From Multifurca ochricompacta (Eukaryota; Basidiomycota; Agaricomycetes; Russulales; Russulaceae), in assembly GCA_022496185.1 (NCBI GenBank), contig WTXG01000018.1, forward strand, positions 124,001-188,000: a stretch of DNA of 64,000 nt, given 5' to 3'. The notes beneath the pieces were generated by a model, which made no database searches, was not told where the DNA came from, and worked only from the letters and a program-made list of their open reading frames with translations. The translations under genes were made by a program, and so were the position numbers. Of this stretch, positions 31,548 through 47,257 are shown piece after piece (within the stretch, counting starts at the first letter, position 1; the number at the start of each line of letters is the position of its first letter).

Positions 31548-31651
31548 GGTCCCAGTGGGGCTGTAGGAATTGATGTAGGTAGGAATTGAGGTCTCGTCCT
31601 TTAACTTCATCAATCAATCAACGACATCTGGCCAAGGCCCCCCCGCACGCT

Positions 31652-31763
31652 CAGGTTCAGGTTCAGGTTCAGGTTCAGGTTCAACTCGGATCCCGGACCG
31701 ATCCTGGACCCGTATTCCTGTTCCCGTTTCTTTGTGCTGTGCTGTGCCGTGCCGTGCCGTGCC
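31652..31763. repeat. two adjacent microsatellites (CAGGTT)n and (GTGCC)n
   Basis: Five tandem CAGGTT units at about 31652-31683 and a run of GTGCT/GTGCC units at about 31734-31763. They lie in the 389-bp gap between the gluconokinase start (31547) and the PARP gene stop (31937), where I see no gene. Confidence 0.85.
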
Positions 31764-31936: not shown

Positions 31937-33828
31937 TCATTTGTATATGATGAGGAAAGATGCGCGGATTGCATCATTCTCAAAAAGTTATTGTTAGTTA
32001 GTCCTATTACGGTTAGTTAGTATGTCGACACCACTCACATCGTAAACTACGATCAGCAATCAACATCAGCTCCAGATCTGTAACTGCTAGCCGCTTGGTA
32101 CGCACCAATGCATTCATCATAGTTCAGATCGCCTCCAGGTTCGCCGATAACCGCGTCATACCCCGGAGGTGGCTGTGATAATCAGATTGCAGCCGAGGAA
32201 CCCTTCACCGAATATAGGCGTCACACCTTTGTCAGGCTTGTGTTCGTCGTCTTAAGCTTGATCGTCTTTCCCATTACAACGTCATTTAGGAGCATTGCTC
32301 GATTTGGAGACGCGCTCCCAGCATAGTAGTCGTTGGCCTATGCACGTTACAGCCCCGCAGTAATGATTTTTCAGACTCACAACCAACCGACCTTTGATGA
32401 CGTCGCAGACGTATAGATACCCGCTCCAAATCGTCCAAAGTTGGTGCGTTCACCCGCGCGGGCAGCTGGAAGGAACTCTATAGGAAGAAGAGATACTATA
32501 GGTGCCGAAAGGCGTTCGATGCACAGGGAAAGCCCCTACCTGGATGATGTTGCACATGTTACAGGCACTCAGTTTGCAAAGTGCTCTATCGGAAGAGGTG
32601 TCCCCTAAACAACATGCCCGAATGGTGCCATGAAAGCGGCGACGCGTATTCGCACCAGAGGTGCCTGTGCGGCGCTCCACCTCCAGTCTAACACATTCAA
32701 AAATCAGTCATGTGTGTGGTCGTGCTAACACGCTCAAACTTGCTGATAACGAGAGAATCTGTCAAGCACAGACCGATCCCCATATATCCTCCAAAGCTGT
32801 GTCCAGGTCCCATCAGATTCGATAAACTACATATTATGGAACAGAATGGCCTGACTTTGATCACAGTTGGTACTGGCGTAGGGTGCTTCCACTGCTCAGT
32901 GAATTGTCCCACCACTGCGTTGAATGTTTTCCTTCAGCGCAAGTGGTAATCCTTTAGCAAGGCTCACCATTGTCATATAGCACATTCGTACTGGGAATCT
33001 CTAGGATCACCGGGGCTGATGAAAGTAGAGATGAGCCCAAGAAACTCCATCTCCCCAGTAGTGGGTAAACCAACTTTTGCTGAGTGCCGTGGTACTACAA
33101 CGCTTAGAACAAAAATCGCTTTTCTTCCCACCTACCTCAACTACCGGCATTTCCTTACAACTTCATGTGACTCGTTGGGGAAGCGGTACTTCAGATAGGC
33201 AACGCAAGACCACGTACAGAAGACAGGCATCGGCCACATGAGCTTGGACTGCCGCACTAGCGGTTGCACATCTTAGCTGAGTTTTTGTGTTTCCATTCAA
33301 GAAGCGCACCGTCTGTGACGATTAGAGCAAAATTTTGTTTTGCTTCCGTCTAGGTCAACATAGACGCGACTTTTGCATCCAGGGATGATGCAAAAATCAT
33401 CGTCGCTCGGAGTCGGGCTCAATCTTGGGTGTGTGGCACGTTGGCCGTTGTTTTTGAACACCTCGGCACACCGCCGTCCGCAAAAATCGTGCACTAAATC
33501 ATTGTTAGCACTCGTTCGTGGTGACGGTCCGTTTATATACGGTAAGGCTAGACGAATCACTCACACCGCCCGTTCTCAATGTATACAGGCTTTGCATTGC
33601 AGTTCTTTGTTGCCCTCCATTAGTAAGGTGCAATAATCTCCGAGTGTGTCTGACATGCTAACCAACCTTGCACATCCGTGATTGTGATCTGGGATTGTTA
33701 GCCATCGCCAAGCGGTGGGTATTCCCGCAGAAGGAGGAGTATGACCCATCGGGATCTTGCCAAACGGCCCTTGTACAACCAGGATATTGGCACTCGGTCG
33801 TCGGACCTCGCTGAGTGTCGGAACACAT
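31937..33828 (-). CDS. PARP-type ADP-ribosyltransferase with four N-terminal Cys/His motifs
   Basis: Predicted enzyme that transfers ADP-ribose from NAD+ to a target. About 14 exons give roughly 365 residues and every join keeps frame. The N-terminal half has four related zinc-binding-looking motifs: ECQYPGC...SSFCGNTHR, MCKNCNAKPVYIE...DFCGRRC, FCIIPGCKSRVYVD...FCSNRHR and CLLCKEMP...SDFCSKRC. The link region VVGQFTEQWKHPTPVP and LWRIYGDRSVLDRFSRYQ leads to the PARP catalytic fold: RRRFHGTIRACCLGD (His of the H-Y-E triad), TNFGRFGAGIYTSATSSK (Tyr), AMLLNDVVMGK, PPPGYDAVIGEPGG and LNYDECIVYD, where the Glu fits the NEYIVY position of PARP1. It ends ASFLIIYK. One intron (32688-32743) has a GC donor (GCAAGT). 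Start at 33828 is the first ATG before the first Cys motif. The NADAR gene ends 115 bp upstream on the same strand. The target is unknown. Confidence 0.86.
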
Positions 33829-33943
33829 GGTTACAGGGGGGAAGGGGGGTAAATTCGATCGATCAACTTGGGACCTCACAGCATCACGTGGGAAAATCAC
33901 ACACACAAATATATAAATTCAAAATTCGATACAATGCAATGCC

Positions 33944-34735
33944 TCAATACCTCTGACGAGCATGCAATCGCTCTCGCAAACGCATCAGCGCCTTACCGAG
34001 TTCATTACGACCTCGACCATCGCTGCCGATACCCCAGAACCAGTCGACCTACGATCAGGCACGTTCATCAACACGATGATATTCGATAGGCCGGCACCAG
34101 GAACATACAGGGCTGTCCTCTATGAGTTCGCGAGAACCAGTACTTCTTAGCGAGTGACGCAGGGAGCGATGCTGCGCAAACTTGGCTGCTATCACCTTAT
34201 CCATGATGGCGACGTTGACTTCGAGCCAGTCAGCACGCTGTCGATGGAGCTGCCTTTTTGCCTCTTGTTGAGCCATACGAGCAGTAGGCAGCCTACGGAT
34301 GCGTTCCGCAAGTGCTGGATCGGTGTCCATAAACTTGAATGCCTGAAAGACTGTGAAGAACTGTATAATGACACTTTTATTTGTCCTTCATAAATGAAAG
34401 CCTACGATGCTCCGCAGTAGGATAGAATAGACCATGATATTCTACTGGGTGGTCGGAAAAGCTGGTGAACCTAGTGATACGGAGGTTACGGAAGTAAAAT
34501 AAGCAATAAGCAACATGTTCACTGATGATGGGACCATCTCACTGACTCATAGAACGGTTTATCGGAATCATAGAAATAGATAGGTTCCTTGGAACTGTCA
34601 GTATTTGATCGACTTGCCCCAGCTGGGGTACTTGTCTGCCCAGTCGTTTCAACATTGTGCCCTACAGTTGGTGCATTACTGGAAGAAGAAAATATGACGG
34701 CGATAGTCTGAAAGAAGGTGGCCATCGAATAATCT
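33944..34735 (-). CDS. NADAR-domain protein (ADP-ribose-related glycosidase family)
   Basis: NADAR (formerly DUF1768, YbiA-like) proteins cleave N-glycosidic bonds to ribose derivatives; some remove ADP-ribose from DNA bases, others act on riboflavin intermediates. Four exons. After a Ser/Thr-rich 50-residue leader come EPIYFYDSDKPFYEFTSFSD, HGLFYPTAEHLFQAFKFM (the T-A-E-H active-site region), DPALAERIRRLPTARMAQQE, RADWLEVNVAIMDKVIAAKF and RSTGSRELIEDSPVDWFWG, then GIGSDGRGRNELGKALMRLR and a short tail ending RQRY. All joins keep frame, so it looks complete. Start taken at 34735 (MATFFQT); an in-frame ATG at 34797 is possible. It is transcribed towards the PARP gene and away from the second NADAR gene. 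Confidence 0.87.
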
Positions 34736-34998
34736 TTGCAAGCAAAGGCAAGACATGAGATGAGATGAGACGTACTACCATGGAGGGTAGAAATCACGTG
34801 GATCTAGATAAGTTGCGAATTGTTGATACCTGCTGCACGCTACACTCACTCAAATGTCATCTTTTCTTCCTGGACTCAACTGGTTCTCCCTCTCATATGA
34901 TAAAGAACGTTATGGACAGGATCTGGGAAAGGGAGACGAAGGACTGTCAGTGAGCCAACACCAATGGACATCGATTCGGAGGAGGCAAGTCAAACTAG
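34736..34998. promoter_or_regulatory. shared divergent promoter of the two NADAR genes
   Basis: 263 bp between the chosen start codons of the head-to-head NADAR genes. It includes a short atgagatgag direct repeat near 34754-34768 and no obvious TATA box. Shared control of the pair is an inference from arrangement. Confidence 0.45.
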
Positions 34999-35719
34999 AT
35001 GTTCATTCTGCAACGGTGCTCGCTTCTTCCTCATTCTCGAGATTCGAGAGAGGAATTGATCGCCTCCTATAATAAAGATTTAATTGCGAAGTCTCATCCA
35101 GATACCTCTCCGATATACTTTTACCACCGTGGAAAACCCCTTTTCGAGTGCGCCAGTATTCCCACTCTCATACTTGCAACCTTGTTTTCATTCGTACCTA
35201 GATTTACGAACTTCTCGCTGCACTCGGTGGAGTATGGTGGAAAGATCTACGCCACTGCTGAGCATCGTGAGTTATGAAGCAGGCTACACAGGTCATGTTT
35301 AGATAGTAATCGCCTTTCTGGCAGTCTTCAAGCACTCAAGTTCATGACCACGAATCCAGCGTTGGCCGAAGTCATACGGACACAGCCTAGTGCTCGTGCC
35401 GCGCGCAAAGAAGCAGGATTCCAACGCGCACACCAGCGACAGGATTGGTTCGATGTAAACGTCGAGGCAATGGATACCGTGCTCTACGAGAAGTTTACAC
35501 AACACAGAGATTTACAAGAGAAGCTTCTCAGCACGGGCAATCGAGAGCTCGTTGAGGATAGCCCTGTGTGCATTAGGTAGCTGTCCTGATATAATTTCGT
35601 GTGAGCTGATCATTGGCCAGGACGACATATTTTGGGGTATCGGAAGGGATGGTCAAGGCCGTAACGAGTTGGGGAAAGCGCTAATGCGTCTGCGGGGACG
35701 TCTGCGAGCTGTTCATTAG
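34999..35719 (+). CDS. second NADAR-domain gene, apparently frameshifted
   Basis: Paralogue of the NADAR gene on the other strand with the same intron positions. The exons read TSPIYFYHRGKPLFEFTNFS, GGKIYATAEH, then after an intron LF...LKFMTTNPALAEVIR, RQDWFDVNVEAMDTVLYEKF, HRDLQEKLLSTGNRELVEDS and DDIFWGIGRDGQGRNELG, ending RLRAVH. The exon starting at 35325 needs one extra base, near 35329, to read LFQALKFM. As given, the spliced frame hits TGA a few codons later, so the copy is either inactivated or carries a consensus error. Its other conserved residues are unspoiled, which favours a recent lesion or an error. Start at 34999 is tentative; an ATG at 34966 is also possible. Confidence 0.78.
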
Positions 35720-37706: not shown

Positions 37707-40700
37707 TCAAGGTTTGGGCGTTGAGACATGCGCACGTTGATGAACATCTTTCCACTGCCCAAAATCTTTAAACGGCACTTCACCGCACAAGTTGCGGGTA
37801 ATGTTGTGTAGCTCGTCCAGAAGCTGTGGATATCCACCTGTAATCAGCAGACAGATCTAGATCGAGCGAAGCAACCCGTACCTCTATGAGCTGGAGTACG
37901 CCTATCACCGCCGTCGCGTAGAACAAGTAATCTAATGAACGCAGCTCCTGAATGTGGTTCATATTGACATCCAAGGTCGGCGCAATGGCATAAGCTGCTG
38001 CATCGTGGTAGAGTAGCCGATCAAGCAAATTCTGCGGAAGCACGGTGTGCATCGGCTCCCCGGTACGAAGCGACTGTGCCACAATAGAGAACACAGAGAG
38101 GACATCAGATATCTGCGGACAATCCATGTTTGGGGGGCATATCAAATCAAGAGTTCATGGGCGTACGAAATTGGGGTTGAGGACTTTTGTGTGATGTAGG
38201 AAATCTGATCGCCATTTGTCGTCGAGCTCTGAGAGCGCACTCGCGAGCTATCGGAGTTATTAAAAGGCACCAAGTCAGAGGGAAGATTCGATGTACCTGC
38301 GCAAACACGGCCACCATTTCTTCTTGTATACCTGCCAGTCTCATATAATCATCGTAAGGCCAATGGCCGCGGACACTTCCCTCCCATCTTGCTAATCCTG
38401 CCGTGTCTTTCAAGTCACGAAGTTGTAGTGCTACCGCGGAGAGGCTTTGGCGCAATGAATCAGCCAATGTCGACTTCCCGGATTTGAGCTCCTTCGACGA
38501 GGGGTTGCCCGAAATCCACGCGGACATGACCGATGCATATACGTGGGACAGGGAGGTCATGGTCATGGCACAACCGAGTCGTACTGCCTTACGAGCAGAT
38601 TTAGCCGGGAAAAGCATCACAATAAAGGACGCAGCAGAGCCTAGACACGGGTCAGTGAGAATGATAAGGGTAAACCACTAGTAATATACCGATCATGACC
38701 AATGTCCACCGCTTCCAGGCGACGGGCCAGCCAATTCCGACATTGGAGATGACCGTGAGGTGACCGTCAATCCAGGAGTACCCCACAATAAGGACAACGG
38801 TGGACTGAAGCAAAATAAAAATTTAACGGCCTTGGGTGAGACAAAGGCACATACAGCCATGAGAATGGTGCCTTGAAGATATTGCTGAGGAGCGAATAGC
38901 CGGCAGAACATGAGAGGCACAAGGAAGACAGCGACGCTTGCCGCAATCCCGTAGACACTTCCCCGTGAGTTTGCATTCCCTGAATGTATCAAGTTCGAAC
39001 TAATGGAGGGATGAATGCCCGCTATACTCACCAACATACCAAATAAGCAATCCAACGATAAGACCAATGAACGTCCCAGTTAACCGAATAAAGTAGCTGT
39101 TCCGCTATCCAGTCAAAGAAGTAAGAGACGAGAAAGGAGATCCACAAACTTATACAACTGATCGCCGGCATATATTGTCAACGTTGTCTGAGCCATGACA
39201 AGTGCCCTGTAACGTCGTTCTTAGGGTGGCAACGAATAGAACCTGAATCCAACATACCAGAGGCCCTTTTGTACATAATAAAAGTCTACCAAAGGCAGGT
39301 CATCATCGGAAAGTTGCTAGCCAGTTGAAGTTAACTTACGCGCAGTACTCTTGACTACGGATGGTACCCAAAGTGCGATAGAAATGAATACATATCTGAA
39401 GACGAACTGTGCGGCAGTGATCAGACATCTTCTGGCACACAATTGAAAGCAGATATACCAGAGCCTCTGGCGTTTTGGTCCATCGATAGACAACGTGTAG
39501 GCCACTCATAATCTTTTGCAAGACATTTGTTGGCTCTCGGCTGTCGGGGTCACGCCCTGGCCAACTCAAAGTCGGTGAAAGCGCGGGAATGGCTTGCAGT
39601 GGCACATACTGTATTTCCCTTCGCCATCCCCTTCTGGCACAACCTCCTTCACCTCTTGATTTTCCCCGTAAGCACGCAAATCCCCCTCGGTACTCTTTTC
39701 AAATAAAAAGGCATGCGCGAGCTGGCGCAAGCCCTTTGGTGCCCACAAACGGTTCTTTTTACGCTTGGTTGTTGTTTCCTGTACGGTCTCCATGACCGCA
39801 ATAATGGCGTCGGCGACGACGACGATCGATGCACTGTAAACATAGCACATGTACAGGGCTCGCAGTGGGGGGGCGGGAGTGCCGAGGTGAGGCTCAAACG
39901 GCTCAAGAAGACGGAGTCGCCCAGACGCCTTGAAATCGGCAAGCGCGCTTCTTAAACGCTCGGCCGCGGAGTCCAACCTGCGCCCCTGTTCAGCGAGATC
40001 ATCTGCAGTACTGCGCAGACTCCAGCGGGTAGTGTTCACAAAGTTGATAGTACTGCTGACAGCAGTGAGCCCGTTGGATGCCGCGGAGCGGAGCTCATGT
40101 GTCGCCTCTCGAAGTTGCGGCAAGAGGTCTACGAGGCGAAGAGAGTGTTGGCGTTCACTCGCCTCATTGTGTTGGTACAACTGTTGCACAAGAAATGTGT
40201 CCGTCATTCCTAAGCTCTGTGATGTCTTCGTTTCGACAGACTCGGAGTCTCGCGCCGTCGAGTTGCGACCGACATACTTCATGAAGCTTAGAAGACCATC
40301 TGGAAGAATAAGGAGCCGTCTAATAAGAAGTCAAAAATTACTTACTCGTGCGAGAGATAACGCTAAGCAACGGTCCCTCAAGTCGTCTTGCGTCGTCACC
40401 GTTCCAGCGACCCCAACTAAATTCCGCATTTATGAATTTGCCTTGAAATGTCACTTTGGGTCAACCATGATTAGAATCGTTTAGTGAACGGCAAGTTGAT
40501 CAGAACGTACGTCCTTGATAGATTGCGAACATCGAAGCTCTGATGGCACGTAATCGCGAGATCTTCGGATCCTCAGGAGTGATTGAGCCCGGTGCTATAG
40601 CGAGCAAGTCCTCTTGCGCGTCAAGCAAGACCTTCAACTGTCCCAGAAGAAGAGTAACGGTTCCCAAGAAAGCATGATTGGCCGTCTGAGGGAAAACAAA

Positions 40701-41714
40701 AATGGTGACCACAAGCGCGATCGCCGTATAAATCGAAACAGGGATAAGCACATTGTTAAGAAGATAGAACTGGTGAAAGGGGAAAAGAGGGCCAATAGCC
40801 TGGAGACGAATCAACACAGCAGTGTGAACAGACGTAAGGATTACATACGCAATAGATGTCAATCGCAATAGTTCCAAAAATGCTCATAAAAATGAGGGAC
40901 TTGTAGTAGGCGCGAATAATTGCGAATACAAAAGTGCCGATAGCGAGGAAGACGCCGAAGACGACTGATGACCTAGGACGCATGAGTCCGGCTGCCAGAA
41001 CTGTCTGATCAAAGATCAAAGATAGCTGACCGGATATCTAGGAAATCTCCTTGAAATATCTCTATTCTAAATACTTGATCTGGGTTTGCAAAGCCTGAAG
41101 CGCTGCCCATGGGAAGATGAAAAAATTGTGCAAGGTAACAGAACCTTGATGAACGCACGTTTCTTTGGCTACCTGGAGGGAGGACTGGAGAAGCACCTTA
41201 TTACGAGCTGCTAGAGCAGCTTTCATGCCTGCGGCGCCAATCGCCCATCCAAGCAATGTTCCAACCAGTACCGTTGAGATCATCTAGTGGACATGCCATT
41301 ATGATTGACTTGGAAGAGGCATGATGTCACTCACGAAAAAAAAGAACTGGACTGGAAACGAAGGGGGAAGTAAAAGCGACGTAAGAAACCCGAAGAAGGC
41401 ACTACATAAGTTAATGATATCGGTATTTGCTTCGTCTCCGTAATCTAAGAGATAGAAGATGACACTCACGCGTTCCCCATTGTCTTTAAGGTCCTATCGG
41501 GGAGTATGACTAGAAAGGCAGCCCAGGAGCCCAACCAGCAACGAAAGAGCATCTTACGGCTCTGTTTTGAACGAATGTTTGTAGCCACCCATGGAGGAAG
41601 GCGATCGAGAAAGGACTGTTTAGGCTGGGATGGCGCTGCTGGGAAAGATTCAACCTCAGATGGATTCGGGGAACTCGAGACTTCAGAAGTGGGAGATTTG
41701 GGTTTTGAAGACAT
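37707..41714 (-). CDS. ArAE/DUF2421-type membrane transporter, copy 1
   Basis: Large fungal membrane protein of the aromatic-acid-exporter-like group (putative ER transporter six-helix N-terminal domain plus DUF2421/FUSC-like C-terminal domain, Bre4-related). Starts MSSKPKSPTSEVSSSPNPSE; then LPPWVATNIRSKQSRKMLFR, SWAAFLVILPDRTLKTMG, TVLVGTLLGWAIGAAGMKAA and VVFGVFLAIGTFVFAIIRAY in the N-terminal bundle. A long soluble helical region contains LVDLLPQLREATHELRSAAS and DDLAEQGRRLDSAAERLRSA. The second bundle has FVFRYVFISIALWVPSVVKS and later helices, ending with LLDELHNITRNLCGEVPFKD and a short tail (VSTPKP). About 15-20 small exons. The substrate is unknown. It is head-to-head with a paralogue at 43166-47257 with matching blocks and exon order. 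Confidence 0.82.
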
Positions 41715-43165
41715 GGGAGAGTGAAAAAAAGAAGGAAGGGTAAGGGATGGGGGACCTCTTCTGTTGATGGGGACTGTCGTCGTTTATATTATGATATGGC
41801 CTGGCCACTAATTGATTGGAGAGAACCCGTACCATTCTAATAATTCCATCTCCATCAAAGCGAACCGAACCGTTTCAAAATAACATAAGTTTCTTGATTT
41901 TATTTCTTTTCTTTCCGTCTCTTTTCTTCTGACACCTCTTAGTTGTGATTGCCAATACACTCATCGAGCATGAGCATGAGCATGAGCATGAGCATGATGA
42001 GCAGCGCATACACATACATACACATATACTTACCCCCCCCAATGGTCATTCACCCGGAGCCCGACGAGCCCGTCGATTGTCACCTTGATATCACCAAATC
42101 GGTCAACGAGGCAGCGACTGACTCACCATTTCGGCAATCACGCACAGTAGGTCAAGGCTAGGCCAGGCCAGAGCCGGCATGTAGCAGGCATTACCATGGT
42201 GATGTGTGTGCACGCATAAGAGATCGACACTAAGCAGTCCTTGGTGAAGCCCCCATGGTTGGAAATTATATATTAATATTATTGCAGATCGTCTACAGGC
42301 AGTGATGCCAACGAATCAATCACGAATGAAGACGCGGAACACGCTAAGCCAGGACGTCATGAATTGAAAAAACACCCCGACCCCGGTCCATGCCAAAAAC
42401 ACTCGAAACGGCAACATAATTAAAACACTCAGAACATCCAGAACCATACGCCTAATTTTGGCACTTCTCTGGCGAACCCGAAGTTAAGTTCAACTCAAAA
42501 GCTATTACTGGAAGTGCCAGATCAAGACTCATACATAGAATGACAAAGTAACGACGAGATATCCTCGCCCACCTATGGACTGGACAAGTATTTGCTTGAG
42601 TCTGATGGTAAAGTAATAATAGTCTCGCATTTCAACACAATCGGTGTTTAACTCCTCGGAGATGATATAGATGTAGTGTAGGTACCGTCAGCACCAAGCG
42701 CATTTGTGAAAGAAAAAGAGAAAAGAGGGATTGGGTGACGTCCTTAAACTGCAGAGCAGACCACAAAACCCCAGAGCCTCCAAAGTCAACATCCAGTGTG
42801 CCATCGTTCCGGAGCGCTTCGGGTGGCTGAGCGCTGAGCGAAAGAAACAGGGGTTGTGATAATGCTGTAAAACAAAAACATCGTCTTCTCTGGCTAGACA
42901 ATTTATGAGTTCGACAAGACCAGAACAGAGGGGCGGGGTGGAAAGTAATGTAATGTAAAGAGAGGAAATAAAGGAATGGAAAGCACAATGCGACGACAGC
43001 TCTATTCAGGGCGATCAGGGCGTCACGAGTCAGCGGAACGGGTGGATGCGGAGGAAAACGTAACGCCACCAACGTGCAGAAATCCCCAGCCCCAGTCAGC
43101 ATATACACGAGGAGTGTGTTCTCTTTCCACGCACGCCACGAACGGTCCACAGGTGTTAAGTCAGG
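41715..43165. promoter_or_regulatory. divergent promoter region of the ArAE-type paralogues
   Basis: 1.45 kb between the two start codons. A GAGCAT hexamer repeat (about five units) lies at about 41966-41997. Frames across 42632-43195 on the minus strand show no similarity and I treat them as chance. Confidence 0.6.
41966..41997. repeat. GAGCAT hexanucleotide microsatellite
   Basis: About five near-perfect tandem units, in the shared promoter region of the two ArAE-type genes. Confidence 0.9.
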
Positions 43166-46100
43166 ATGTCTAAACCTGAGCTCTCCTCGTCTCAACCGGG
43201 CGCGTCCAACAACACAACGGCTGGGAAGCCGTCGACTTCCGTGGTCTCTCGTGCATCAAATTTGGTGCACAACGTTTGGGACTTCATACGCCCTCAGCCA
43301 TGGGTGATCAATAATATTCGCCAAAAGAAGTCACAAAAGCTTCTCTTTCGTTCATGGCTTCCAGGATGGGGAGCACTCATCTTAATGTTACCCGGTAATT
43401 CGCTCAGAACTATTGGGACTCTGTACGTGAAGTCGGGTTCCTTCGTGTTCGCCCCCTGGCATTGACAGTCAATGCGTCTTTAGTGGGTATTTTGGGATGC
43501 TCTTCTCCGTTTTCATCCCCCCGATGTTTCCGGTGCAAATATACTTAGTCGTAAGCGTCACCTTTCGAAATTATGCAATCAGATCCACTTAGTCTTGCTT
43601 GAACGCAGATTGTCGTCCAATCCTTACTCGGACTGCTGGTTGGTTGGGGAATTGGCTCAGCTGCAATGAAGGCAGCTTTGGCTGTGCGCTCTCAAGTCCT
43701 TATCGAAGCAACTCTTCAAAAGGCCCCCAATAAGTCAGTCGCTCCAAAAGCCCCATGACCCTGTTTTGACTGACTTTCGCAGTTTCCAAGGCTCTGTAAA
43801 CCCAGATCAAGTTTATAAGGCTGAAGTTTTCAAGGTGACTTTCTGGATGCTAGGTCAGTCATGTTTTCAACGGGCGTGTCTTACTGTCTGAATATTCTTT
43901 AAGGTCCTCGGTTATGTTTGGAGTTTTCATGGGCTTCGGTGCTATGATATTTGCCCTCATCCGCGCAAAAAGCGCACCGTTTCTGTTCTTTTCCATCTTT
44001 GGCACCATTGTACTCGACATTTTCTGCGTGCGTGTTTTTCTCCAGCTTCATGATAGACAACCTCATCGCCTTTCTTCAGTCTATCGGCCCTCTTTATCCT
44101 TTTCCAAATTACAAAATTGTGAACAGTATTCTCATCTCCTCGTCTAGTTACTGTGCCATGGCACTTGTTTGTTGTTTTGTTTTTTTCCCCGAGACGGTCA
44201 ACCATGCATATCTTGGCTTGATATCCACGGTTCTCGGAAAGGTCGAGGCAATGCTTTCGTCGCAAGAAGGTTTGCTATCGCCTAAACCTGGTGATTTTGC
44301 CCCAGGATGTCCAAAATTGAAGGCTCTTACTGGGGCTCGCGTTATTCTTATGACGATGTATCAGAACCGTGAGTATAGTTATCTTCCTTATACTGGCATT
44401 CACGGCCTTGCCTTTTCAGTGGCGGGGTTAACCGTTCACCTCCAAAGCGAGTTCAGCATTGGTCGCTGGAGTGGTGATGACGTATTTGGTCTCGCAGATC
44501 CAGTTCTCGCAGTTGTTGCGCGTATTAGTACGCACCGATACATAACCCGAGACTGTCCGCCCTAACCTTGACGCAGATGGCTTATTAAGTTTCGCCAAGC
44601 ACCTTCGTGATCTGCCCTCGCCGCCTGAGGCGTTCGCGGATATGCCAGCACCTGGGACTGTTTCTTCTGACACACACCTTTTACACCACGTTTTTAATCC
44701 AGACATAACACGCGAATCCATCTTGAAAGTCACGCTTATCGAGGCCCTTCCGCACGTGCGTAACGCGACGGCTGAGCTCCGTGCCGCAACTATTGAGGGT
44801 GTGGCAGCCACCCGAGCGATGATCGACGCAATCAACAATGACCGACTCTTTTCGCGCTCTGGTCCTATTGCACCGCTGGAAGAACGTCTTGACGCAGCTA
44901 GTGATAAGCTCCGTGCTACTCTGAAAAGTTTCAAGGAGCAGGGGACCGATGCTATCTTGGGAGCTTATGCTCACAAACCTCGGGCAGACATTCCATTGAG
45001 AAGCCTTTATATTGGATATGTGTTCAGTTCGACGGCGGTAATAATCGGGGAGGTCGTGCTCTCGTTCGTTCAAACGGTTGCTGAGACAACCGCTCGAAGG
45101 CGAAGAGTTCGTCTGTGGGCACCCTCAAGTTTGAGGCATGTCGTACATGCGCTGCTGAAGGGACGCCGCAAGAATGAAGAGCAGGCGTTTGGTGAGGAGG
45201 AGAGTAATGAGACGTATGTTGATGAGGATGATGTTCAAGAAATGGAATATCGTGAGTGTTTCTGTCGATCGCCAATCGGTATTGTCGCTCATTGTTATAC
45301 ACCCCAATAGATTTGGATCCAGATAGCCATCCGCCGACCAATATCTTCCAGAAGTTCATGAATCTGTTACATCATTTCTTACAATGGGTAAAGACAGCAG
45401 AAGCTATCGTGCGTCTTGTCTCGTCATCTTATCGCAGGGGTGCTAACCACAACGACCGCCAGTTCGTGTTCCGCTATGTACTTATCACAATCCTGCTCTG
45501 GCTCCCCTCTGTGGTCAAGAATAGTGCCCGTATGCACTATTTGGTGTTCCTTTTTTTTCGTTTAGAGGCTGACGAGAGGGGGGGGGCGGGCAGATTTCTT
45601 TTACGTCAATAAGGGCATTTGGTGAGCTACCTTTCTTACGTTCATTGATTATCTGTTCGCTGAAACTATTTCAGGGCCCTGATTATGGCCCAGACCATAT
45701 TGACGGTCTACGCAGGCGACCAATTGTACAAGTGAGTTGTTCCTTTAACATTGAGTTCACCCTCTCATGCGCATCCATATAGTTACTTGATTCGAATTGT
45801 GGGTACGTTCCTAGGACTTATCACAGCCCTGGTCATCTGGTATATCGGTGGGTGTATCTGCGCTTCAAATTTGCAGTGTCGTTTATTTAAGAATTTAGGT
45901 AATGGCAGCGGAAACGGTAGCCCATACGGTCTTGCCGCCAGCTATGCCGTTCTCTCTCTGCCTGTTATGTTCATTAGATTGTTTGCACCACCGAAGTATT
46001 TGCAAGGAGTGATTTTAGGCTGTGTGCGTGTTTGACATCGCATAGCCTGCGCCTTGCTCACTCTGGATTAGATCACAGTGACCCTCATTATAGGGTTCTC

Positions 46101-47257
46101 ATGGATTGATGGACACTTGCCAGTAATTTCTGATCCTGGCATTGGCTGGAATGCTGCCTGGCGTCGATGGACTCTTGTTATGATCGGTACGTGGCCCTTC
46201 TGTTCTTTTCCCCTCCTTAACATATTACAGGCTGTGGTGCATCTTTCATTATCATGATGCTTCCGCCAAAATCTGGACGTAAGGCTGTCCGTCTGCGTGC
46301 GGCCGCGTCGATTGATGCCCTTAGCCACGTCTATACCTCGCTGATTTCCGCATGGATCACGGAGAGCGACGAGGGAAAGGGCGCTTCGTTCGCATCGTCT
46401 AGCTGGGTCAAGGCGTTCAGAGATCGACTTATAGCTGTCACGCTCCAGATTCAGACGGGCAAGCAACAGATGATGCTTGCATCTTGGGAAGGAGGCATCC
46501 GAGGGCGTTGGCCGCAGGAGGAGTATGTCAAGTTAACGGAGGTTCAAGAGGACATGATCGGGGTGTTGGCACAGGTGCGCGGCATTGGGGAGGTATGGGA
46601 CGACATACTAATCGTAGGAAACTATCACTCACAGCTCGGAGGAGCGCTATGGAAGCTCGATACCAAGTGGCGATTGTCGCTCCTACATCACACTAAAGTG
46701 GTTGACCCAAACTTCGTACGTTGTTCTCACGCCATGCCATACTCGGCGAACTAAGGTCTTACCCTATTCAAGATTTCCGACATCGTGTCCGTGTTCTCGT
46801 CAGTGTCACAGTCTCTCAGAACGGGTGAACCCATGCACACCGTGCTCCCCCAAACATTGTTGGATCGCCTGCTCCTCCATCATCAGACTGGGGTGATAGC
46901 CACTGGAGAACTTGACGGGCATAGAGAGATTGGCCCGGATGAGATCCAATCTCTTGATCACATGTTCTATACCTCAGCAGTCATCGCCGTTTACCAGTTG
47001 ATGCAGGTGCGTATTTATTAGTTGCATTTACCGTTACGCATGTTTAAATTCTGGGTTTGATGCAGTGCTTGGACGAGCTTCAAGCTATAACACGCAGACT
47101 CTGCGGAGAGGTGCCGCTCCGCGGGTTTGAGAAATGGAAGTTCCTGCACAAGTCGCGGCGTGGAACGCGGCAAAATACACTATCTCGAACGGGTACTATT
47201 GTTGAGCGAGAACCGCTCATCACAAATGAAAAGAGTGGTGAGGAAGGAGAGGCTTAA
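43166..47257 (+). CDS. ArAE/DUF2421-type membrane transporter, copy 2
   Basis: Paralogue of the divergently transcribed gene on its left. Starts MSKPELSSSQPGASNNTTAG; the N-terminal bundle has PWVINNIRQKKSQKLLFRSW, GWGALILMLPGNSLRTIGT, VVQSLLGLLVGWGIGSAAMK and GVFMGFGAMIFALIRAKSAP. The central soluble part has LIEALPHVRNATAELRAATI and PLEERLDAASDKLRATLKSF. The second bundle includes RFVFRYVLITILLWLPSVVK, LIMAQTILTVYAGDQLY and GTFLGLITALVIWYIG. The end has CLDELQAITRRLCGEVPLRG, then a charged tail (NEKSGEEGEA) longer than in copy 1. About 15-20 exons; the joins I tested, including two small exons near 45595-45725, keep frame. Substrate unknown. Probably an inverted tandem duplication old enough for clear divergence. 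Confidence 0.83.

Follow-up and report, generated by a model that had tools for sequence, protein, structure and literature searches.

In the toxin-antitoxin system DarT1-NADAR (DarTG1), the NADAR protein removes ADP-ribose from guanine, and guanine bases are the targets of DarT1 or pierisin-type enzymes. NADARs outside the DarT systems, and eukaryotic ones, have also been reported to remove ADP-ribose from guanine; many eukaryotes carry NADAR proteins, and few of their partners are known. PARP-domain proteins with cysteine-rich N-termini are expanded in agaricomycetes, with a motif order that presumably resembles that of the PARP described here. We analyzed a 64,000-nucleotide stretch, hereafter the window, of the agaricomycete Multifurca ochricompacta (GenBank assembly GCA_022496185.1, contig WTXG01000018.1, positions 124,001 to 188,000), in which a PARP-family ADP-ribosyltransferase gene lies beside two NADAR genes. 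The assembly comprises 53.8 Mb in 605 contigs, and all fungal evidence is drawn from it.

The PARP gene adjoins the only two detected NADAR genes in this genome that keep a conserved glutamate, and a cysteine module is found on both kinds of enzyme, making these genes a concrete candidate writer/eraser pair. Our leading reading, held tentatively and at a little under even confidence, is that these genes make up a small ADP-ribosylation module in which PARP and NADAR form a writer/eraser or writer/clean-up pair. If true, reversible ADP-ribosylation of the DarT-NADAR sort would extend to PARPs in eukaryotes.

The PARP gene and the NADAR pair

The PARP-family gene lies on the minus strand (31937-33828) and is modeled in 14 exons (33828-33667, 33604-33565, 33493-33310, 33271-33218, 33160-33075, 33015-32968, 32914-32856, 32796-32740, 32680-32540, 32475-32392, 32337-32227, 32172-32106, 32046-32039 and 31978-31937). 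The splice sites were picked by hand from the sequence, so the model is a predicted one; its 13 introns all follow GT-AG, measure 38-71 nt, and leave an intact frame of 380 amino acids with no internal stop. The model scores 46.1 bits against the Pfam profile PF00644 (cut-off 26.7), and at an E-value of 0.01 Pfam finds no further domain. The residues of the H-Y-E triad, placed by motif, fall at HGT (residue 247), GIYTS (296) and DECIVY (361). The sequence-only reading had proposed a complete PARP gene with this triad, and the open model bears this out; the call is correct because DECIVY emerges only upon splicing. The nearest solved structures, found with a query containing an X, are PARP4 (best, E 3.7e-10), PARP3 and the tankyrases, and a PHROGs scan with the PARP end returned a family described as polymerase.

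Exon 9 (32540-32680, minus strand) encodes RRRFHGT and a CNMCNII cysteine cluster, and exon 10 (32392-32475, minus strand) encodes FGRFGAGIYTS. A one-base frame break in exon 10 was considered and dropped, since the acceptor ATAGAG opens the frame, while the ATAG acceptor two bases before it gives SSFQL and then breaks the frame.

The first NADAR gene is intact and encodes 196 amino acids on the minus strand (33944-34725; exons 34725-34547, 34470-34406, 34350-34109 and 34048-33944), with a PF08719 score of 125.7 bits (cut-off 35.1, Pfam). The second is divergently oriented on the plus strand (34999-35719), in pieces 34999-35147, 35202-35266 (35270 with an alternative donor), 35325-35565 and 35621-35719, and its start codon is uncertain. 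Its alternative-donor model scores 116.4 bits against the same cut-off, and its three introns occupy the same domain positions as those of the minus-strand copy. Its integrity is uncertain because in-frame splicing of intron 2 requires the unusual donor GTTATG at 35271; the donor GTGAGT at 35267 loses the frame. The earlier proposal of two NADAR genes thus stands by homology, both passing PF08719, while the intactness of the plus-strand copy is left in doubt at intron 2. A PHROGs scan assigned the NADAR to an unnamed NADAR-like family.

Both local NADARs retain conserved E (in PTAEH or ATAEH), W and D columns, which we take to have roles in NADAR proteins. The two are identical at 96 of 153 residues and are sisters in a 31-row tree (support 99/95), with last exons that match in inverted orientation at 73%; the inverted pair would be the product of a duplication. 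Over 153 codons, differences number 42, 39 and 93 at first, second and third positions, with dN at about 0.31 and dS not estimable (alternative-donor model). Because the differences pile up at third positions, the pattern is consistent with purifying selection acting on at least one copy for much of their separate history, and selection of this kind probably acted on both.

The order is therefore plus-strand NADAR, minus-strand NADAR and PARP, the last lying 115 bp downstream of the minus-strand NADAR stop on the same strand (33829-33943). This spacing, given in the sequence-only reading, is exact in the gene models, and what that reading observed is correct almost to base level. As modeled, 273 bp separate the divergent NADAR start codons (34726-34998), which is possibly a shared promoter.

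A cysteine module on the PARP and on a bacterial NADAR protein

The N-terminal half of the PARP consists of two copies of a two-part unit, CX4C...FCX3H followed by CX2C...FCX3C, in an A-B-A-B order. Modules 1-3 are CX4C-FCX3H (residues 13-38), CX2C-FCX3C (53-76) and CX4C-FCX3H (102-127), encoded within 33310-33828, and module 4 (145-168) is encoded within 33271-33075, all on the minus strand. The two module pairs are alike beyond their cysteines, with none of 5000 cysteine-preserving shuffles reaching the observed score. The modules probably bind zinc. They have no solved relative at E below 0.8, and Pfam gave sub-threshold hints only, including EsV-1-7, zf-FCS, YacG and Jiv90.

With the window PARP as query, we searched 28 fetched loci (tblastn, E 0.01 or better; flanks mostly 2.5 to 5 kb, shorter at contig ends). 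The three matches were two phage PARPs and L027, a bacterial locus retrieved for its NADAR similarity, from a metagenome-assembled genome labeled Verrucomicrobia (E 2.7e-5). L027 carries a 451-amino-acid open frame (L027:3443-4798) with a NADAR domain at residues 189-338 (PF08719, 61.0 bits) and a C-terminus reading CILPSC...FCSISH...CDNC...YCGRSC, in a module order identical to the PARP unit. Aligned with the first PARP unit, the L027 modules score 101 (0 of 5000 cysteine-fixed shuffles as high); with the second they score 64 (2 of 5000). Judged by eye, frames near the L027 NADAR look bacterial and include a helicase, phosphoribosyltransferases and an ABC ATPase.

Beyond this locus, searches with the fungal version of the module gave no match in plasmids, and those with the bacterial version gave none in phages. 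Viral contigs held no confirmed relative of the PARP end, of either module version or of the L027 protein. Against plasmids, the NADAR part of the L027 protein alone matched, among the ten matches listed out of 20.

The occurrence of one cysteine module on a PARP in the window genome and on a NADAR protein in a bacterium hints that the adjacency is functional, and it is the strongest reason to think so. Together with the adjacency itself, the common module favors a common pathway for PARP and NADAR.

The small number of genes of either kind detected in the assembly bears on that adjacency. NADAR profile and protein searches across the assembly recovered exons of three genes, two at this locus and one on contig C46 (91077-91620). 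The latter belongs to a long, proline-rich protein that reads YPTALH in place of PTAEH or ATAEH, with the glutamate replaced by leucine, and it is possibly non-catalytic. Within 9.9 kb around it, no PARP match was better than E 0.17. All matches in the assembly to two queries from the window PARP (6 of 6 and 10 of 10) fall at this locus, although such searches score few candidates and could miss distant PARPs. Under random placement, the probability of a PARP lying this near one of two NADAR loci is about 1.1e-4 to 4.7e-4, depending on the distance allowed, with the local NADAR pair treated as one locus and no correction made for its post hoc choice. The true weight of the adjacency is smaller than computed because the pair was selected after being seen.

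Searches of the same assembly for related functions say less. The PF00644 and PF02877 profiles gave no match, likewise none in 14 control genomes, and PARG searches also gave none in the assembly or in the 14 controls, leaving both results uninformative. Neither WGR (positive in 2 of 14 controls) nor ADP-ribosylglycohydrolase (5 of 14) was found in the assembly, and intron-split domains may escape such searches. Two macro-domain matches were found, at contig C584.

Writer and eraser, or neighbors

In the proposed module, the PARP-family enzyme would transfer ADP-ribose from NAD+ onto a target picked via its four cysteine modules. The adjacent NADAR enzyme or enzymes would then hydrolyze N-glycosidic ADP-ribose or remove an N-glycoside that the PARP reaction leaves as a by-product. 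The activities, and a substrate common to both, are plausible; a base of a nucleic acid, for instance guanine, may be that substrate. The sequence-only reading had suggested opposing activities on one substrate; the functional link gains from the cysteine module pair found on the PARP N-terminus and on the bacterial NADAR C-terminus, while action on a single substrate stays a proposal.

A more ambitious version, which we think unlikely, is a eukaryotic ADP-ribosylation cycle built on the shared cysteine module. In the fungus, the module would guide the PARP to its target, a nucleic acid or something else; in bacteria, fused to NADAR, it would guide the eraser to a target of that kind. A PARP would thus act as the writer in a eukaryotic equivalent of DarT-NADAR, possibly one that serves defense or genetic conflict.

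Several observations weigh against joining the two activities. The fungal evidence comes from a single genome, and the fusion of module and NADAR was seen once only, on a metagenome-assembled contig. The 26 prokaryotic or viral NADAR loci in the scan, among them L027, gave no PARP catalytic match, although the query detects two phage PARPs. No ADP-ribosyltransferase is listed in any of the 20 NADAR neighborhoods viewed (4 phage, 16 plasmid), in which many genes are hypothetical. To our knowledge, guanine bases have not been described as PARP targets. Both local NADARs also pass TIGR02464, the riboflavin N-glycosidase profile (106.5 and 100.4 bits, cut-off 73.7), and in the 31-row tree a branch with 100/100 support places the local copies with YbiA among 23 rows, apart from the remaining eight, which are the solved NADAR 8bau and seven plasmid NADARs.

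These last results feed the alternative that survives best, namely that the genes are neighbors without shared chemistry. In this case the NADARs would be N-glycosidases of the YbiA type, which dispose of phosphorylated riboflavin intermediates or of damaged metabolites like them, and the PARP would adjoin them by accident or hitch-hiking. YbiA (2b3w) is the best solved match of the NADAR query (E 9.5e-26), and 8bau is the one further solved NADAR that was recovered. The minus-strand NADAR aligns with YbiA over residues 48-191, and the plasmid NADARs of top identity (41%) include one RibA-fused NADAR. The lack of PARP catalytic matches at the 26 NADAR loci fits as well, as do the scanned flanking exons, which are ordinary. 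The TIGR02464 label carries little weight, because it does not separate functions; a partial chain of 8bau passes too (116.7 bits). Finer placement of the NADARs is not possible because 18 of the tree's 28 inner branches are open, and its set holds no NADAR known as DarT1-linked. The sequence-only reading had named clear membership of the riboflavin-pathway YbiA subgroup, joined to a lack of effect on ADP-ribosylated substrates, as a finding that would count against it; half of this is borne out, since profile scores and tree put the NADARs with YbiA, but the profile has no discriminating power. The low probability of chance adjacency and the cysteine modules common to the window PARP and a NADAR protein also speak against mere neighborhood, which we consider somewhat unlikely.

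The ordinary character of the surroundings can be seen in the flanking exons, which match in Pfam an SKN1/KRE6 beta-glucan synthesis protein, a kinase (shikimate-kinase profile), transaldolase and BRE4-domain proteins; introns in the window are many and short. Further along the window, the BRE4-domain genes form an inverted duplication (38006-46879), whose arms (38006-38249 and 46633-46879) are 72% matching. A perfect TCAGGT hexamer array of 5.5 copies (31651-31683) lies past the PARP 3′ end.

Outside fungi, the NADAR matches listed numbered 276 phage records and 59 and 77 plasmid records, and NADAR scans gave one locus from viral contigs and five from genome contigs. The two phage PARP regions list no NADAR gene by name. 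Pfam scans of ten proteins (the window PARP, two NADAR proteins and seven neighbors) placed an ADP-ribosyltransferase domain in the window PARP alone. On a Bacillus amyloliquefaciens plasmid, a NADAR gene lies two genes upstream of a macro-domain gene (L053:2480-3762), another possible ADP-ribose link. An Enterococcus plasmid encodes one protein with NADAR, ArdC-like and metallopeptidase domains (L049:2438-5302). A Nocardia plasmid NADAR (L057:2384-3688) has a weak C-terminal YpsA/SLOG match below cut-off and a second NADAR gene close by.

A further alternative is a poison-and-antidote or intracellular immune module, in which the PARP would be a harmful effector and the NADARs would neutralize its product, as in DarT1-NADAR. 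The 115-bp, same-strand arrangement of PARP and NADAR and the second NADAR copy are in keeping with this. So are weak matches of the local NADAR to NF053876, a NADAR family anti-phage protein (64.5 bits, cut-off 240), and to the PADLOC entry PDC-M42C (28.5 bits). PADLOC returned no match for the PARP, with a query that contained an X. Neither a DarT family nor a mobile-element domain came up when the PARP and nine flanking exons or proteins, a part of the window's frames, were scanned with Pfam, although no search aimed at mobile elements was made. We regard such a module as improbable.

Slightly more improbable still is a decaying lineage-specific cluster with at least one gene no longer working: the plus-strand NADAR does lose its frame with the GTGAGT donor, the PARP frame does hang on one exon 10 acceptor, and on the PARP profile the open model is outscored by a query containing SSFQL and an X (55.8 bits for 205 amino acids against 46.1 for 380, the query lengths differing), so that the frame may have changed there in the past, but the PARP and minus-strand NADAR have full open models, all 14 PARP exons are readable to the terminal IRASFLIIYK, and the NADAR pair shows its third-position excess.

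Comparison with known systems

The proposed PARP-NADAR module can be set beside four described groups. PARP4, the tankyrases and PARP1-3 share with the local PARP the PF00644 catalytic domain in the C-terminal half and the H-Y-E residues, whereas the local protein carries, in addition, the A-B-A-B set of cysteine modules at its N-terminus and the cysteine cluster within its catalytic region. Unlike the expanded PARP-domain proteins of agaricomycetes, it was detected in one copy in this assembly. YbiA/RibX, the N-glycosidase of riboflavin intermediates (TIGR02464; 2b3w), resembles the local NADARs in the profile that both pass. These, however, adjoin a PARP rather than being fused to RibA or RibD, and the minus-strand copy is 37% identical to YbiA in a multi-sequence alignment.

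DarT1-NADAR is similar in that an ADP-ribosyltransferase gene adjoins a NADAR gene. The local NADARs lie on the YbiA side of a tree that includes no known DarT1-linked NADAR, and no DarT-family toxin gene was found beside them: at E 0.01 the adjacent transferase matches PF00644 alone in Pfam, and the nine flanking exons or proteins scanned match no DarT family. In contrast to DarT1-NADAR, the transferase here is a PF00644 protein with cysteine modules, the NADAR is present in two copies, and the genes bear introns.

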